Below the pieces are notes generated by a model. That model was not told where the DNA came from and ran no database searches. It worked only from the letters and a program-made list of their open reading frames with translations. The translations under genes and the position numbers were made by a program. From NCBI RefSeq assembly GCF_019703855.1, contig NZ_AP024086.1, forward strand, positions 1,570,501 to 1,634,500: a DNA stretch of 64,000 bases, written 5' to 3'. Numbering within the stretch: position 1 is the first letter of the stretch; each line of letters opens with the position of its first letter. Shown piece after piece: positions 40,596-47,458 of this stretch. This DNA is from Desulfomarina profundi. GTDB lineage: Bacteria > Desulfobacterota > Desulfobulbia > Desulfobulbales > Desulfocapsaceae.

Positions 40596-43508
40596 TTACC
40601 GTAGAAGTATGGTGGCGATTTGGCGGTCGAGTGCAAGAGGGAGTCGGACTTCCTTTCCCGCCTTGTTTTTAAATAAAAAATATCCATTTTCCAGTGCATA
40701 ATAGAGAAGGTCGCGGGTTAATTCCACATCGTCTTTACAGTATCTTGCGATGAGCTCTATTTTCCCCTCCCTGTACCACTGCAGTGCCTGGAGGCCATCT
40801 GCTGATTTTTTTCTGCCCAGTGTGGTGGCTGCCAGGCGATCGAGGCTCAGGCGATATCCAAGGTATTTCTGTACTTCGGCCAGCAGGTCGAGGTTAGGGA
40901 GTTGTGTCAGGTCTCGATCCGTATATGCCGAGATTACCCTGTTGTCAAAGCGAATATTGTTAAATCCCACAATAAGATCCAACCGATGGAGATGATCGAT
41001 AAAGTCATCTATCTCCTCTTCCAGGTAAGATACATAACTGTCAAGCCGTGAGTCATAGATTACCGCCACGGAGATGCCCATTTTCTCGCAATGCGCCCAG
41101 CCTCCCACCTCCTTTGCTGAACGGATTGTCTCCAGATCAAAAACACCAAAATGTTTGGGCAGGCTGTTCAGACCGGTTGGGTAGGAGTTTGTCTTATTTG
41201 CTTTCTTTTCCTCCTGGTTGATCATATTTTCAGGATCAAGGGGATTGGCAAAGATATGGCCGAAAAATTCCAAGCAGGCCTGTTTATCTATCGGCCTGTT
41301 CCCTGAACCGCATTTGGGTGAATGGACACAGGATGGACATCCGTTCTCGCAGCCACAGGTCATGATAACCTTATATGTTTCCCGAAGCAGCTCCTCTGCC
41401 CTGCCATACGCTGCCCTTGCCAGCCCCACGCCTCCCTGGTGCCCGTCGTACACGAAAATAGATCCTTTCTCCGTCTGATCATGGACAGGGCAGGAAATAC
41501 CGCCGATATCATTGTGGTCACAGAGAACAAGGAGGGGGAAAAGGGCTATTATTCCATGCTCAAAGGCGTGAATTGCCCCCATAAAATGAAGCTTTTTTTC
41601 TTCAAGATATGTCCTGGTTTCCTGCTCCACGTCAAACCAGATACCTTCCGTTTCTATGGTCTGTTCAGGAAGATCGAGATCTATGGTCGACATGGTTCTC
41701 TGTGTTCTTTTGTTCTTTTTCTGATAACCTGTAACCTTTTCCATCACTTTGACCCTGCCCAGAGAAACGGTGAGCCCAAAACAGGTTTTCTTCCCATATA
41801 CCTCCAGAATTTCAGTTCGTTTACTCACCATTGGCCGGGTATAATAATTTGGTGATTCCCGACGGACAACCACCTCCCCTCCCTCCAGGTCAAGGTGTTC
41901 GACCAGTTGTACCATTCCCCTGTGAATATAAACCGCACCGGGATGGCATTCCTTCAACGCCCTGGTGCTGTCAATTTCCCCGGTAATCTCCCCTCCCGGC
42001 AGCTCAATAATCACAAGCTGTCTGCCGCCACCCCGCAGACTCACAAGTCTCTGGGGGTATTTTCTGGTGGAGAGCCAGCAGCCGCCCGAACCGGTCTCAA
42101 GCAGGACGCCTTTTATTGTCATTTCAACTACTTTTTCCCTGATTTTGCTGTTCTGAAGAAGAGGCTCATTTCTTTTCAGCGAAAGTTCCGCACTGCAACA
42201 ATGCAGGTGTTGAGCCGAGATAATATCATTTTCAGGATTAAGGACTGCAGATTCAGGTGCTCTCTTGAAAAAATCTTCTGGATTTCTCATAAGATACTGA
42301 TCAAGCGCATCTTCCTGGGCAATAAGAATAACGGCGGACGACCTGCCCCCCCGACCTACCCTGCCCCCACGCTGCCAAGTGGCCATCACGGAGCCAGGGT
42401 AGCCCACGAGGATACAGAGATCAAGATCACCAACGTCTATACCAAGCTCAAGGGCAGATGTGGATATGACCCCGAGCAGGCGGCCGGAAAATAACCTCTG
42501 TTCGATGTCTCTTCGTTCTTCCGGTAGAAAACCGGCCCGATAAGCACTCAGTTTATCGGCCAACTGCCCAAGTCTCTCGGAAGTCCAGATGGCAATCAGT
42601 TCTGTCATCTTTCTTGACTGGGTATAGACAATGGTTCGCAGTCCCCTTTTCATTGCCGCCTCCAGGAGTCTGCTGGCACTGTATGCGGCACTGTCCCAGG
42701 GGTTGATCATCAGAAAATGCTTTTCCGATCTGGGCGCTCCACTTTCTTCAATTACTTTGACAGAACGATCCAATAACAATTCTGCAAGTTCCCCTGGATT
42801 GCCGATAGTGGCAGAAAGCAGAACAAAAACAGGTTCTGCACCGTACCAGGAGGCTATTCTCTGAAGTCGTCGAAGGAGCCAGCTCATATGACTGCCCAGC
42901 ACCCCCCTGTAACTGTGAACTTCATCAATAACTATATAACGCAACCTGGCGAAGAAATTTGCCCAGCTGTCATGGTATGGCAGTATGGAGAGGTGCAGCA
43001 TTTCCGGATTGGTCAAGAGTACAGGCGGTGGATCATTACGTATCTTACGCCTCATGTAGGGGGAGGTGTCTCCATCAAACAGTGCAGCAATTGGCCCGTT
43101 TTTCGGGTTTTGCCCCCCGCCTGCCAACTGTGCCAGGCTTTCGAGGGTATTCAACTGATCCCTTGCCAGGGCCTTCAATGGGAAAACGTAGATTGAGGTG
43201 CCGGGGATATCCTGATTCAGTTCATCCAGGACCGGGAGGTTATAGATCATGCTTTTACCCGAGGCGGTGGGTGTCGCCACAATAATATCATGACCCTGCA
43301 GAAGATACCGGATAGCCCTGGACTGGTGTGAAAAAATATTTTTTATTCCGGCCTTTTTCATTATCTCCCGGGATGTTGGAGATAGATCTGTTGCTTTTTT
43401 TGAGAATTTTGCAGGAACTCCGTCTATTTTTTTATGGAAGACGACCTGGGGCCCGAACCGGGGAGAATTTTTGAGAGAACTGATATATTCTGAAACATCC
43501 GGGTCCAT
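40596..43508 (-). CDS. Fused MrfA-type (YprA/DUF1998) helicase and MrfB-type (YprB) DEDDy exonuclease
   Basis: A 970-aa protein. Residues 1 to about 760 are an SF2 helicase of the YprA/Hrq1 group: ATPTASGKSM (Walker A), VIDEVHSYRG (DEVH), SALELGIDVGDLD, QRGGRVGRGGRSS, then a DUF1998 end with the four-cysteine motif in CGCENGCPSCVHSPKCG. Residues 787 to about 945 form an RNase H-like 3'-5' exonuclease: FDLET (Exo I Asp/Glu), GFNNIRFDN (Exo II Asp) and RYCKDDVEL (Y-x3-D, Exo III), a complete DEDDy set. In B. subtilis these are adjacent genes yprA/yprB (mrfA/mrfB), a pathway that removes mitomycin C lesions independently of UvrABC. A similar role here is inferred. It is monocistronic and convergent with the SH3b gene. 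Confidence 0.85.
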   Translation of the reverse strand: MDPDVSEYISSLKNSPRFGPQVVFHKKIDGVPAKFSKKATDLSPTSREIMKKAGIKNIFSHQSRAIRYLLQGHDIIVATPTASGKSMIYNLPVLDELNQDIPGTSIYVFPLKALARDQLNTLESLAQLAGGGQNPKNGPIAALFDGDTSPYMRRKIRNDPPPVLLTNPEMLHLSILPYHDSWANFFARLRYIVIDEVHSYRGVLGSHMSWLLRRLQRIASWYGAEPVFVLLSATIGNPGELAELLLDRSVKVIEESGAPRSEKHFLMINPWDSAAYSASRLLEAAMKRGLRTIVYTQSRKMTELIAIWTSERLGQLADKLSAYRAGFLPEERRDIEQRLFSGRLLGVISTSALELGIDVGDLDLCILVGYPGSVMATWQRGGRVGRGGRSSAVILIAQEDALDQYLMRNPEDFFKRAPESAVLNPENDIISAQHLHCCSAELSLKRNEPLLQNSKIREKVVEMTIKGVLLETGSGGCWLSTRKYPQRLVSLRGGGRQLVIIELPGGEITGEIDSTRALKECHPGAVYIHRGMVQLVEHLDLEGGEVVVRRESPNYYTRPMVSKRTEILEVYGKKTCFGLTVSLGRVKVMEKVTGYQKKNKRTQRTMSTIDLDLPEQTIETEGIWFDVEQETRTYLEEKKLHFMGAIHAFEHGIIALFPLLVLCDHNDIGGISCPVHDQTEKGSIFVYDGHQGGVGLARAAYGRAEELLRETYKVIMTCGCENGCPSCVHSPKCGSGNRPIDKQACLEFFGHIFANPLDPENMINQEEKKANKTNSYPTGLNSLPKHFGVFDLETIRSAKEVGGWAHCEKMGISVAVIYDSRLDSYVSYLEEEIDDFIDHLHRLDLIVGFNNIRFDNRVISAYTDRDLTQLPNLDLLAEVQKYLGYRLSLDRLAATTLGRKKSADGLQALQWYREGKIELIARYCKDDVELTRDLLYYALENGYFLFKNKAGKEVRLPLALDRQIATILLR

Positions 43509-43683
43509 AAATAATACCGGCTTACTCCATGGTTTCGGCTCAACCGGGAAACAAAATGTTGCTTAAACGATGAGGAAAGGATATTTTCTGTTTTCCTGCG
43601 TAATTCGGAGCATAATTGAAAACAGGAAATAAATAATAATAATAAATTAAAAACAAAAAATAAAAAATTACCCTTTATCAACA

Positions 43684-45375
43684 ATGGTCACTATTGCAAC
43701 CATGGGCCCTTCAGGCTCTAACAGTGTACTCGCCGCAAAACAGTATGATCCGGAGGCAGATTTAAAACTCTACCTAAAATTATCCGACTGTCTTGACGCG
43801 TTTAAACGAAAAGAAGCCGACTTTGCGCTCATCCCTGTCTATAACACACGGGAAGGTGAGGTAAAGGAATATTTCCGGCTGGTTGCAAAAATGGAAGAAG
43901 GTTACTGGATTGATAATGTTGTCCTGCCCATCCACCTCTCTTTTGGTATTTTCCAGGGAAATAATCCATCCCAGGTCAAGACAATTGTTGGAAGAGGCCC
44001 GGTATTCCGCCAATGTGACGAATATATTGAGGACAATTACCCGGATGTGACCCTGATGGCCGTTCAGAACATCGAAGAAGCCATGGAGGAAATCCGCAGG
44101 GAAGAAAAAAGCGGTTATGCGGTTATCGATTCCGAACAGTTACTGGAACAATACGGCTTTCAACTTATCGCAAGAGAAGTTGTTTCCCATAACCGTACAC
44201 GGTTTGCGGTGATTGGAAGAAGTATCGCGCCCCAGACCGGCTATGATGCCACGGCAATTATCACCCACCCTCTGCGGGACCGGGTGGGCATGCTGGCTGA
44301 CATCCTGGGAGAATTCACCAGAAGAGGCATTAATATTCTTGATCTCCAGTCTGAAAACGACATCAAAACGCAGAAACTGCGGATCTATGTCGAAATTGAA
44401 GGACATATCGAAAACAACAATATTTCCGAAGCCATACAAACCATAGAAACGACCGTAATCCAGGAGGAATCCGCTCTCAAGATCCTCGGCTCTTTCCCCA
44501 GGGTTGACATGCGGGTGAAAAAGATCAGGAATTTTGGTTTTATCGGCAGTGGCGATATGTCTCAATGGTTTGCAAAAAGACTGGAAAACGAAGGATATGA
44601 GACTCATATTTCAGGAAGGACATCAATTATCCCGCCTGAAAAGATGATCAAAGAGGTTGATGTGGTCATTGTCTGTGTTCCCATCTCTGTTACAGCCAAA
44701 ACAATCAAACAATATGGCCCACTTTTAAAAAACGGCCAGGCTCTTATAATTCTTGCGGGAGAATCGGAAAAGACCATACAGGCTGCCCTGGATTCCACAG
44801 ATCCCGGTGTAGAGGTTATGTTTGTCCACAATCTCTGGGGCCCTCAGGCCCTGACCATGAAGGATAAAAACGCGGCAATTGTCAGAACCCCGAGAAGCGG
44901 CAGTTTCTGCAGTGAATTCGAGGCATTTTTATATAAACATGGGGCCGATATCTACCATGACTCCGCCAAAAAACATGATCTGCTCATGGGAGTGGGACAG
45001 AAACTGCCCACAGCCATTTCCGTTGCCCTGGCAATGACTCTTAAGCAGTTTGGTATAGAAAGCCGGGATATAGACAGCCACTCGACCCTCACCTCCCTCT
45101 ACGGTATTCTTGCCATGGCCAGGGTTCATAACCAGAACCCGCGCACATATGCCGAAATTATGGCCACAAGGGGTGAGGGCGAAAAAATTGTCCGCAGTTT
45201 TGCTGAGAATCTGCGGGCCATTATTGACAGGGCCGAGCATGGCGATATTAATGAACTTTCAGAAATTATGGAAGAAAACAAAAAATCAATGTCGCCCTCC
45301 TTTCTTCGGTCCCGAATGAAACAAGCCAAAGCCGTTGATGATGTTATGAGCCGGCCGGATATGAAAATGCAGTAA
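43684..45375 (+). CDS. Prephenate dehydratase-like / ACT / prephenate dehydrogenase fusion
   Basis: A 563-aa three-part protein for phenylalanine and tyrosine synthesis. Residues 1-180 resemble prephenate dehydratase (PheA): MGPSGSNSVLAAK, IPVYNTREGEV and the catalytic TRF at 172-174. Residues 189-270 are an ACT regulatory domain (DRVGMLADILGEFTRRGINI). From 283 on there is a TyrA-type dehydrogenase: NFGFIGSGDMSQWFAKRL nucleotide fold and VHNLWGPQAL, which carries the active-site His region. No chorismate mutase domain is present. In the dehydratase part the usual PVEN is PVYN (Tyr53 in place of Glu), so activity of that half is uncertain. The start lacks a clear ribosome site and follows an AT-rich stretch. 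Confidence 0.82.
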   Translation: MVTIATMGPSGSNSVLAAKQYDPEADLKLYLKLSDCLDAFKRKEADFALIPVYNTREGEVKEYFRLVAKMEEGYWIDNVVLPIHLSFGIFQGNNPSQVKTIVGRGPVFRQCDEYIEDNYPDVTLMAVQNIEEAMEEIRREEKSGYAVIDSEQLLEQYGFQLIAREVVSHNRTRFAVIGRSIAPQTGYDATAIITHPLRDRVGMLADILGEFTRRGINILDLQSENDIKTQKLRIYVEIEGHIENNNISEAIQTIETTVIQEESALKILGSFPRVDMRVKKIRNFGFIGSGDMSQWFAKRLENEGYETHISGRTSIIPPEKMIKEVDVVIVCVPISVTAKTIKQYGPLLKNGQALIILAGESEKTIQAALDSTDPGVEVMFVHNLWGPQALTMKDKNAAIVRTPRSGSFCSEFEAFLYKHGADIYHDSAKKHDLLMGVGQKLPTAISVALAMTLKQFGIESRDIDSHSTLTSLYGILAMARVHNQNPRTYAEIMATRGEGEKIVRSFAENLRAIIDRAEHGDINELSEIMEENKKSMSPSFLRSRMKQAKAVDDVMSRPDMKMQ

Positions 45376-45451
45376 TTCATGTAACTGTTCCGTGAAATCA
45401 GAGTATCATGAGATTAAACACGGTTTTTAATTTTATTGAGGAGTGTTGTTT

Positions 45452-46102
45452 ATGATGTCCTGGGATTTAAAAATACTGGAAGAAGTAAAAATCTGCCCCC
45501 ACTGCAACAAAAAACTGACCTGTTGTGAGGCTCCGCAGATCCACGTGGGTGACGGTCTCGGCTGGGGCTCGGAAGTCCTGTTCATCTGCCTGAACGATGA
45601 ATGTTCCCTCTTTGTCAAAGGCTTTGATTACCTGGAGGAAAAATTTGGCCATCGGGCCTCCTACAGGTATATGGAACTCCCCGGCTCAAAAGAGAGCAAT
45701 GTCATGATGGTCGGAAACAAGAATGCTTTCAAGGGCAGTATTATCAATCCGGAGGTTATCAGGCAGCAAAACAAACGATACAGAAAGGAAAAGGAGGCCA
45801 AGGAAGCATTAAAGACCTGTCTTGAAGAAAAAAATCTCGAACCTGTTCTTACCCTGCTGCTTGACGAAGCCGCCATGAAAAGCACCAGGGTCGAAGCCCT
45901 GGACTATCTTGCCAGGCTCAATGATATAGCCTGTATTGATCCATTGAGAAACCATACCTTCAGAGACAGCTCAATGGAACAGAGTGTTAATATGATCCTG
46001 CAGAAGATCCTGCAGGCCAATTATAAAAAAGAATGTCCGTTCTGTGCCGAAATAATCAAATCCCAGGCAAAATTGTGTATGCATTGCGGCAAAGATGTGT
46101 AA
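45452..46102 (+). CDS. Zinc-ribbon protein of unknown function
   Basis: 216 aa from the ATG at 45452, with GAGGAG well placed upstream. The N-terminus holds a cysteine cluster (CPHCNKKLTCC, later CLNDEC), and the C-terminus a second zinc ribbon (CPFCAEIIKSQAKLCMHCGK). Between them lies a helical region resembling HEAT-like repeats (LEPVLTLLLDEAAMKSTRVE). No family function can be named. It stands between the aromatic-amino-acid fusion gene and tRNA-His. Confidence 0.7.
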   Translation: MMSWDLKILEEVKICPHCNKKLTCCEAPQIHVGDGLGWGSEVLFICLNDECSLFVKGFDYLEEKFGHRASYRYMELPGSKESNVMMVGNKNAFKGSIINPEVIRQQNKRYRKEKEAKEALKTCLEEKNLEPVLTLLLDEAAMKSTRVEALDYLARLNDIACIDPLRNHTFRDSSMEQSVNMILQKILQANYKKECPFCAEIIKSQAKLCMHCGKDV

Positions 46103-46164
46103 AATAGCAGGTCACAGGGTGCCGGAACCTTCCACGATCAGCCCGGCTTACGTATGACCTGGGC

Positions 46165-46240
46165 GCTTCGCCTTTGATGCCTCATATCTCCGGCAAGATT
46201 ACCAATTGCAGGATCGAGGTTATAATAAAAACACAAAACC
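46165..46240 (+). repeat. Dispersed repeat B, copy 2
   Basis: Shares the ordered blocks ATCTCCGGCA, CCAATTGCAGGAT and TAATAAAAAC with copy 1 at 10990-11075, with small insertions between. It lies between the Zn-ribbon gene and tRNA-His. Confidence 0.5.
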
Positions 46241-46323
46241 GTCTTTGATCCATGATTATATCTTGCAAAACAAAAACTGACCGGGTATAAAAGACACGCG
46301 TTTCAGATGATGAAATTCAATGT

Positions 46324-46401
46324 GGTGAATGTAGCTCAGCAGGTTAGAGCATCTGGTTGTGGCCCAGAAGGTCGGGAGTTCGAATCTCCTCATTCACCCC
46401 A
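46324..46401 (+). tRNA. tRNA-His (GTG)
   Basis: A full cloverleaf can be drawn: acceptor GTGAATG with CATTCAC, D-arm with AGCTCAG, anticodon stem TCTGG/CCAGA around loop TTGTGGC (anticodon GTG), and T-arm GGGAG-TTCGAAT-CTCC. The extra G at 46324 opposite C73 is the G-1 required by histidyl-tRNA synthetase. CCA is encoded (46399-46401). Confidence 0.96.
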
Positions 46402-46413
46402 CTTTACGCATAC

Positions 46414-46452
46414 AAGGGGTGGTTCCGGTATTGATGGAACAACCCCTTTTTT
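46414..46452 (+). terminator. Terminator after tRNA-His
   Basis: AAGGGGTGGTTCC pairs with GGAACAACCCCTT (one mismatch), ending in a run of six T. Confidence 0.85.
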
Positions 46453-46545
46453 ATATGAAAGTGAAGAAAATGAATGAGCGATTGCATCACTTTCATCGTT
46501 CGTTGTGGCTGTGATCCATAATTTGGTCCAGCCATGCTGGTTATC

Positions 46546-46591
46546 TGAAAATCTCGCTACCTAAGGTCGCTTTGCCGCAGTAAGATTTTCA
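46546..46591. repeat. Inverted repeat before the alpha/beta hydrolase gene
   Basis: TGAAAATCT (46546-46554) and AGATTTTCA (46583-46591) are perfect inverted copies. Another pair, ATGAAAGTG (46455-46463) and CACTTTCAT (46488-46496), lies just upstream. Possible hairpins in the leader of the next gene. Confidence 0.4.
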
Positions 46592-46657
46592 TTCGGTTTT
46601 TGCAGGTCTATTCCGTCCGTAAAAGGCTCTTCCGGAGCAATTAAAAGCGATATTAAA

Positions 46658-47458
46658 ATGGATACTTACTCAAAACTCGACAGTGATGCGATTCTCTCAA
46701 CCCTGTTTCCCCCGACGGATAAAACAAAGAATACGTCTTCTGACAGTGGAATTTCCGTCCACCTTCATCCATCCTGCTCCTGCCGTCTATTTTACCAAGA
46801 TAAGGAGAATCCGGTTTTCCTCAGTTTTCTGCCGGAGGAATCAAAAATGTTCGCAGAAACCCTAATCCAAAACGGTATTAACATCTTTATGATCACAGTT
46901 AACCCGTATAATCCGAAAAAAGGACAACCGACAATAACAGCCCTGATGAGTTCACTGTCGAAAATCCTGGAGAAAATAAAAGAGTGTATGGCCGACAATA
47001 AGTTGACCGGAAAACTTTTTGTCAACGCAAAATCGATAGGATCTGCATTTGCCCTGGAACTGGCCAGTAATTTTCCGGATGAATTCAAAGGAGTAATCCT
47101 TGAAAGCAGTGTCTGCGATACCATCCCTTTCCTGGAGGCAGCTGGAGTAGAGAAGGACAACCTCGGCTTTTCAGAAGACGAAGGCTTTAATAATTTGAAA
47201 AAAATTGAGAAAATCAAGCTGCCCACCATGTTTCTCCATGGCTCCCGTGATACACTGGTAGCTCCTGCTCTTGCTGAAAAACTTCAGGCATCTTCGGGGG
47301 CGAGAACCAAACAGTTTCATCTGGTTCCCGGAGCGGATCACTGGTCAGTGGCAGAGGCTGCCGGAGACTTGTACTATCAGACAATAAAGATTTTCGTGGA
47401 TAGTGTCTGCGGAATCAATACCTGGCGGCAGCGACGGAGGAAATTTCGCAAGTCCTAA
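46658..47458 (+). CDS. Alpha/beta hydrolase
   Basis: 266 aa. The alpha/beta-hydrolase triad is visible: nucleophile Ser in NAKSIGSAFALELA (the elbow reads A-K-S-I-G instead of G-x-S-x-G), Asp in FLHGSRDTLVAP and His in VPGADHWSVAE. The nearest general group is the dienelactone-hydrolase/prolyl-oligopeptidase type. There is no signal peptide, so it is cytoplasmic. Substrate unknown. The ATG lacks a strong ribosome site. dCMP deaminase follows 52 bp downstream. Confidence 0.75.
   Translation: MDTYSKLDSDAILSTLFPPTDKTKNTSSDSGISVHLHPSCSCRLFYQDKENPVFLSFLPEESKMFAETLIQNGINIFMITVNPYNPKKGQPTITALMSSLSKILEKIKECMADNKLTGKLFVNAKSIGSAFALELASNFPDEFKGVILESSVCDTIPFLEAAGVEKDNLGFSEDEGFNNLKKIEKIKLPTMFLHGSRDTLVAPALAEKLQASSGARTKQFHLVPGADHWSVAEAAGDLYYQTIKIFVDSVCGINTWRQRRRKFRKS

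Follow-up and report, generated by a model that had tools for sequence, protein, structure and literature searches.

A single reading frame in the genome of Desulfomarina profundi joins a prephenate dehydratase-like domain (PDT), an ACT domain and a TyrA-type dehydrogenase in one chain, in which the glutamate of the usual dehydratase motif PVEN is replaced by tyrosine. This raises the question of whether the chain houses two enzymes of aromatic amino-acid biosynthesis or whether its dehydratase half has taken on a different role, possibly in the service of the dehydrogenase to which it is attached. The gene lies in a window of 64,000 nucleotides (contig NZ_AP024086.1, positions 1,570,501 to 1,634,500), and the features discussed below are collected in Table 1.

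Architecture, neighbourhood and distribution of the fusion

The first-pass annotation of this DNA had described the domain order as dehydratase-ACT-dehydrogenase without chorismate mutase, and had noted PVYN in place of PVEN alongside an intact TRF motif. Both observations are borne out, the former by Pfam and by a structural model and the latter by alignments (residues 51-54 and 172-174). A Pfam search for chorismate mutase in the chain gave no match at E up to 0.1. In the TyrA half PDH_C (PF20463) covers residues 428-531 with 34.4 bits, above its cut-off of 22, and PDH_N covers residues 320-388 with 22.2 bits, below its cut-off of 26.5. The NCBIfam equivalogs for prephenate dehydratase and prephenate dehydrogenase each recognize one half, both far under their cut-offs, and the fusion is therefore regarded as a divergent member of both enzyme families. 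An AlphaFold model of the chain (mean pLDDT 84.7, pTM 0.70) resembles the PDT-ACT crystal structure 6vh5_D over residues 1-276 (Z 24.7, 265 residues, 3.5 Å) and TyrA from Haemophilus influenzae, 2pv7_B, over residues 277-554 (Z 25.6, 272 residues, 2.5 Å). The latter, a T-protein, is the top structural match of the TyrA half, and Bacillus anthracis TyrA (5uyy) is also among the matches retrieved with the model.

Table 1. Features of the fusion gene and its neighbours, in coordinates of the window.
Feature	Position	Strand	Basis or remark
PDT-ACT-TyrA fusion gene	43684-45375	+	ATG-start ORF, 563 aa
Prephenate dehydratase-like domain (PDT), residues 4-179	43693-44220	+	Pfam PF00800, 121.9 bits, cut-off 25.2
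PVYN, residues 51-54; Tyr53 for canonical Glu	43834-43845	+	alignments
WIDN, residues 75-78; Trp75, Asp77 and Asn78 nearly fixed in fusions	43906-43917	+	alignments
Gln110-Cys111, as in most canonical PDTs	44011-44016	+	alignments
NRTRF, residues 170-174; TRF motif retained	44191-44205	+	alignments
ACT domain, residues 198-254	44275-44445	+	Pfam PF01842, 30.6 bits, cut-off 27
QSEND, at the ESRP position of most P-protein ACT domains	44347-44361	+	alignments
TyrA dehydrogenase part, residues 278-563	44515-45372	+	Pfam, alignment to 2pv7, structure and profile matches
GxGxxG nucleotide-binding motif	44536-44559	+	alignments
Gly311-Arg312 after the second strand; no Asp at the E. coli D32 position	44614-44619	+	alignment
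HNLWGP; TyrA His (His382) retained	44827-44844	+	alignments
Arg480, aligned with the 2pv7 Arg at the presumed place of E. coli R294	45121-45123	+	alignments
Zinc-ribbon protein, 219 aa, no NCBIfam match	45443-46102	+	downstream of fusion
DEAD-box helicase, MrfA-type zinc-binding domain	40596-43508	-	divergent from fusion

A contig scan for the fusion found 88 relatives, from which 80 loci were kept. The chain was matched in all 80 and both halves were mostly spanned in 78, the partial ones being L080 (residues 98-556) and L086 (residues 1-451); reading-frame defects were seen in L041, with one internal stop, and in L087, which is out of frame as read. The record names are mostly those of Desulfobulbaceae, Desulfocapsa and related genera, and the loci include those of the cultivated Desulfoprunum benzoelyticum (L018) and Desulfopila aestuarii (L085), other names being Desulfobacterales (L017, L080 and L081), Desulfoarculaceae (L027), Deltaproteobacteria, Proteobacteria or a plain bacterium, and the hosts are mostly sulfur-cycling bacteria. 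Among 159 genomes of the order of the window, Desulfobulbales, each at least 90% complete, a profile of the whole chain matched 155 at E up to 1e-60, with partial or split copies in G038, G094, G030, G140 and G149. Together with the 80 loci, this tally rules out an accident of one genome or an artefact of gene calling.

When 247 genomes sampled from the phylum were searched with the chain profile, matches at E 6.5e-240 or lower came from 11 members of the order, D. profundi among them. Outside the order no match in this sample was better than E 2.3e-35, and the matches listed for these genomes span one part of the chain, PDT-ACT or TyrA. Long frames outside the order, taken from among the matches listed, were considered as candidates for further PDT fusions and set aside: of the eight judged by eye (G168, G204, G191, G175, G342, G267, G276 and G181; G324 and G327 were left out), three look like DAHP synthase-PDT-ACT chains in which the Glu is retained and five like P-proteins with an upstream open frame. 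At three loci of the phylum outside the order (L135, L136 and L137), chains that appear by eye to be DAHP synthase-PDT-ACT retain the Glu of PxEN.

In a quick tree of 84 PDT rows, from which 13 of the 39 fusion rows had been omitted for thinning, the fused PDTs fall into a single clade (SH-aLRT 100) apart from the P-proteins of the order, themselves one clade (98); the fused TyrAs are likewise a single clade in a tree with separate TyrAs. One clade for each half fits a single origin, in which a PDT-ACT copy would have been joined once to the front of a TyrA. In the PDT tree the fused PDT does not group with the P-protein of the order, from which it might have been derived, but with so long a stem (2.63 changes per column) such a derivation may still apply.

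The neighbouring genes were surveyed as well. The zinc-ribbon gene lies no more than 400 nt downstream of the fusion and on the same strand in 66 of the 75 loci with enough sequence, and further downstream in seven more. It also occurs away from the fusion in the order genomes G113, G115 and G135, and other orders have it without the fusion; since the gene is found apart from the fusion, a functional link was left out of the mechanism proposed below. Of 73 loci, 47 have a match to the helicase close to the fusion. At its C-terminus the D. profundi helicase weakly resembles a PolB-type exonuclease, with a score under the threshold. An Rfam search for an RNA leader or attenuator over positions 42500-46800, at E up to 1, returned a tRNA alone (tRNA-His), and inspection of the gap upstream of the fusion by eye revealed nothing conspicuous.

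The dehydratase half and the other dehydratases

Of the 117 fusion rows read, 115 are distinct, and not all are independent, as some may stem from one organism or from close ones. At residue 53, 109 of the rows have Tyr, three His and two Phe, and three have a gap. A Glu at this position in all homologues of the same architecture would argue against a changed role for the dehydratase half; neither Glu nor Asp occurs in any of the 114 filled rows. The five rows with His or Phe belong to four genomes of one family (G113, twice, G114, G115 and G118), in which the chain is otherwise intact. Of 58 non-fusion PDTs in an alignment that includes 39 fusions, 57 have Glu here; the one with Asp is the solo PDT of D. 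profundi itself. Thr172 and Arg173 are present in all 117 fusion rows, followed by Phe in 85 and Tyr in 32. The nearly fixed motif residues of the fused PDT can be written as PxYNTR, WxDN, QC and NxTR. Asn54, Gly58, Gln110, Asn170, Thr172 and Arg173 are retained in the fusions, and Tyr53, Arg56, Trp75, Asp77 and Asn78 are newly, and nearly, fixed; the column of Asn78 holds Glu in 57 of the 58 non-fusion PDTs.

The divergence extends well beyond residue 53. Conserved columns were defined as those in which a single residue accounts for at least 90% of the 54 P-protein-type PDTs, which come from putative P-proteins and have about 90 or more in-frame residues ahead of them. Of the 46 such columns, 16 are kept (the residue is present in at least 80% of the 39 fusion rows) and 22 are lost (at most 20%), the lost ones including F and H of GTFSH, E of GE, and S and H of SHP. 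Two controls were treated in the same way: of the 46 columns, 24 are kept and 14 lost in three DAHP synthase-PDT fusions; in the solo PDT of D. profundi the figures are 25 and 21. As the solo PDT is nearly as diverged as the fused PDT, the number of changes alone is no proof of lost activity. Over 11 order genomes in which both proteins were read, the fused PDTs share 46% identity on average in pairwise comparison and the P-protein PDTs 67%, the fused ones being less identical in 54 of 55 genome pairs; the corresponding value for the chorismate mutase of the P-protein is 58%.

The genome of D. profundi, a single contig with an estimated completeness of 95.6%, encodes three PDT domains: the fusion, a chorismate mutase-PDT (P-protein) and a solo PDT-ACT. 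The P-protein gene lies about 47 kb from the fusion, beyond the window, and has CM_2 and PDT in one frame; it contains the sole match over the cut-off in a search of the genome with the CM_2 family. The solo PDT-ACT (L002, 1414-2340) has the motif PVDN and a very long branch, and adjoins what appears by eye to be a TRAP-type transporter-like gene. The second pheA and the chorismate mutase that the first-pass annotation had suggested looking for are thus both present, together with a third PDT, and the possibility that the fused PDT is the sole PDT of the organism is ruled out.

The main rival to a regulatory reading of the PDT half is residual dehydratase activity, the chain then being a bifunctional branch-point enzyme in which the PDT half has retained its dehydration of prephenate, possibly at a reduced rate, the ACT and TyrA domains share control, and both branches are served by one polypeptide. 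Dehydratase chemistry is still possible, since Asn54, Gln110, Thr172 and Arg173 are kept, as is the PDT fold. According to an excerpt of PMC8192741, E159 of the E. coli enzyme (the Glu of PxEN) and E232 apparently serve substrate binding and are distinct from the four residues that serve catalysis; the solo PDT of D. profundi, also much diverged, carries Asp at the same position. A PDT match of any kind is found in 158 of the 159 genomes of the order, and in three of these (G004, G089 and G124) the fusion is the sole PDT, as a bifunctional enzyme would allow. The CM_2 match is absent from all three as well, as expected if one gene carrying both CM_2 and PDT had dropped out, and the simpler reading would be that the contig with the P-protein is missing from these assemblies. 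Against bifunctionality stands the broad provision of ordinary dehydratases: by hand tally, 151 of the 159 genomes have a PDT whose match reaches canonical strength (E 1.6e-58 or lower), and 148 have such a PDT together with the fusion; in a further four (G006, G061, G142 and G149) the canonical copies are broken or partial. The fused PDT is, moreover, far less conserved than that of the P-protein, and the motifs GTFSH, SHP and GE have been partly lost in addition to the Glu. A bifunctional enzyme is, on balance, unlikely.

The PDT half could also be a vestigial spacer, which binds nothing and merely positions the ACT dimer. Its low overall conservation would agree with this, 18 of 183 PDT columns being invariant in a 27-row alignment (A1) against 31 of 93 in the ACT domain; the value for the TyrA part is 92 of 287. 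The same may be said of one genome, G038 (single contig, L189), where a break of the frame within the PDT part leaves ACT-TyrA open behind it, a defect that may be a sequencing error. The few fixed residues are, however, located mostly in the motif stretches (51-58, 75-78, 110 and 170-173), and Tyr53, Arg56, Trp75 and Asn78 have become nearly fixed there for the first time. Residues of this kind would hardly be held across 117 rows by a mere spacer, which makes this explanation rather improbable.

A new enzymatic activity of the PDT half that makes use of Tyr53, for instance on arogenate or another prephenate-derived compound, would account for the new, nearly fixed polar and aromatic residues of the motif stretches and would have a parallel in GqqA, a PDT fold with another claimed chemistry (excerpt of PMC8192741), but is very improbable, given that the neighbouring genes do not point to such a reaction and that His or Phe takes the place of Tyr53 in five rows of otherwise intact chains.

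The ACT domain, the dehydrogenase and a proposed sensor

In the ACT domain, Glu222, Arg224 and Pro225 of the P-proteins are replaced across the fusion family (QSEN in D. profundi); they belong to ESRP, the Phe-binding motif of the P-protein ACT domain. Of 26 conserved P-protein ACT columns, 14 are kept and 11 lost in the fusions, against 14 and 12 in the solo PDT. The mean pairwise identity in the 11 order genomes is 64% for the fused ACT domain and 62% for that of the P-protein, the fused domain being the more identical in just 37 of 55 pairs. Because the ligand motif of the P-proteins has been lost and another, highly conserved motif gained, the fused ACT domain has probably acquired a new ligand specificity.

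The TyrA half has the GxGxxG motif and the PDH_C domain expected of a TyrA, and profile-profile comparison relates it to separate TyrAs at E 2.1e-40. Arg480, whose position presumably corresponds in residue number and role to R294 of E. coli TyrA, is found in 114 of 114 filled fusion rows, the same column of the separate TyrAs holding Arg in eight of 20 and Lys in another eight. His382 is conserved in all 115 filled fusion rows and in 20 of 20 separate TyrAs, and is equivalent to the invariant H197 of the E. coli enzyme (excerpt of PMC1173090). The position of E. coli D32 is occupied by Gly, as in 16 of the 20 separate TyrAs of the phylum; following the rule that a TyrA with neither Asp nor Asn at this position uses NADP+ (PMC1173090, in part), the fusion dehydrogenase is predicted to use NADP+. 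The fusions have HNLWGP where all 20 separate TyrAs of the phylum examined have HPLFG, and the substrate or kinetics may therefore differ from those of a textbook TyrA. As far as can be judged from sequence, the dehydrogenase active site is thus also remodelled. The NAD-binding part has a mean pairwise identity of 67% in the 11 order genomes; the C-terminal TyrA part, at 56%, displays no special conservation.

This dehydrogenase should be functional, as it is the sole TyrA found in the genome. A search of D. profundi for a TyrA apart from the fusion found none: with PF02153, at E up to 1, two matches were obtained, neither reaching the cut-off, namely the fusion itself and a stray of 14.1 bits (E 0.07), and a profile of separate TyrAs (A2, built from 16 TyrAs) had one match in the genome. 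A search of the same genome for a biopterin-dependent aromatic amino acid hydroxylase (PF00351) gave no match at E up to 1. Over the order, the separate-TyrA profile matches 155 of the 159 genomes, with exactly one match in 152 of these 155; among the matches listed, it falls in an open frame of at least 558 aa, save in G038, G061 and G094, where the copies are broken or cut. One order genome that is 98% complete, G082, has no PDT, CM_2 or chain-profile match and a single match to the separate-TyrA profile.

The reading that we favour, and consider fairly likely, is that the fusion is the tyrosine-branch dehydrogenase of the order and that its PDT-ACT front end is a ligand-binding regulatory module in which dehydratase activity has been lost or lowered. 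The TyrA half would convert prephenate (or arogenate), probably with NADP+. Phenylalanine synthesis would be served by the separate chorismate mutase-PDT, and the fused PDT half would have been released from this task; it is likely to be dead as an enzyme and would probably have become a sensor rather than a second enzyme. It would contain a remodelled prephenate-type cleft, with Tyr53, Arg56, Trp75 and Asn78 beside the retained Asn54, Gln110, Thr172 and Arg173, and we infer from the motifs of the family that the fixed residues line this cleft. That the PDT half is poorly conserved overall, yet keeps and refines a small set of motifs, suggests ligand binding. Together with the re-specified ACT domain, it would sense an aromatic ligand, be it prephenate, phenylpyruvate, Phe or Tyr, and in response control the dehydrogenase of the same chain allosterically.

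The first-pass annotation had anticipated much of this proposal, suggesting that the dehydratase half may have become a regulatory or binding domain and that the ACT domain controls the dehydrogenase. Regarding the former, a loss or change of function with retained binding is supported by the presence of the P-protein and of a third PDT and by the lack of Glu at residue 53 in the 114 filled rows, a complete loss of activity being no more than likely. Regarding the latter, the invariance of a third of the ACT columns and the changed ligand motif would fit such control.

A more specific proposal can be offered tentatively, as a possibility that we hold with some doubt: the former dehydratase, altered from Glu to Tyr, may act as a cross-branch sensor that reads prephenate or a metabolite of the phenylalanine branch and sets the flux through TyrA, having replaced the usual end-product sensor throughout the order. 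If true, this would be a clean natural example, order-wide and with the ordinary enzyme still present, of how a catalytic domain comes to regulate a competing branch, and would open to study the active-site changes by which a dehydratase becomes a sensor. For annotation purposes, the fusion chain should not be taken as evidence for a second phenylalanine route in these organisms.

Comparison with known systems

The P-protein of E. coli consists of chorismate mutase, PDT and ACT domains, and its T-protein of chorismate mutase and TyrA. The fusion is made of the same kinds of domain, but lacks the chorismate mutase that both E. coli proteins contain and has an altered PDT motif. The principle of a catalytic-domain paralogue that regulates a biosynthetic enzyme is also represented by HisZ of the short-form ATP-phosphoribosyltransferase; in contrast to the front end proposed here, HisZ is a separate subunit and belongs to another pathway.

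An excerpt of PMC1173090 names AroQ, AroF, HisH, ACT and REG as fusion partners of TyrA, besides the four-domain TyrA-AroQ-PheA-ACT chain of Archaeoglobus fulgidus, and a PDT-ACT-TyrA fusion is not among the TyrA fusions named there. A search of the open-licence literature by title and the start of the abstract found no paper on such a fusion, a weak negative in view of this coverage. The A. fulgidus protein resembles the fusion in having TyrA, PDT and ACT in one chain (PMC1173090, in part). It has TyrA first and includes chorismate mutase, whereas in the Desulfobulbales PDT-ACT comes first, the mutase is absent and there is a separate P-protein. The Bacillus-type TyrA-ACT, described in the same excerpt of PMC1173090, also combines a dehydrogenase with an ACT domain, which is C-terminal there; in the Desulfobulbales fusion the ACT domain precedes TyrA and is accompanied by a whole PDT domain. 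GqqA of Komagataeibacter is similar in that a PDT-ACT fold is claimed to have gained another activity, and differs in that its Glu is kept, PDT activity is reported from complementation and it is not fused to TyrA (excerpt of PMC8192741). The domain combination of the Desulfobulbales chain is one of known parts in a new arrangement.
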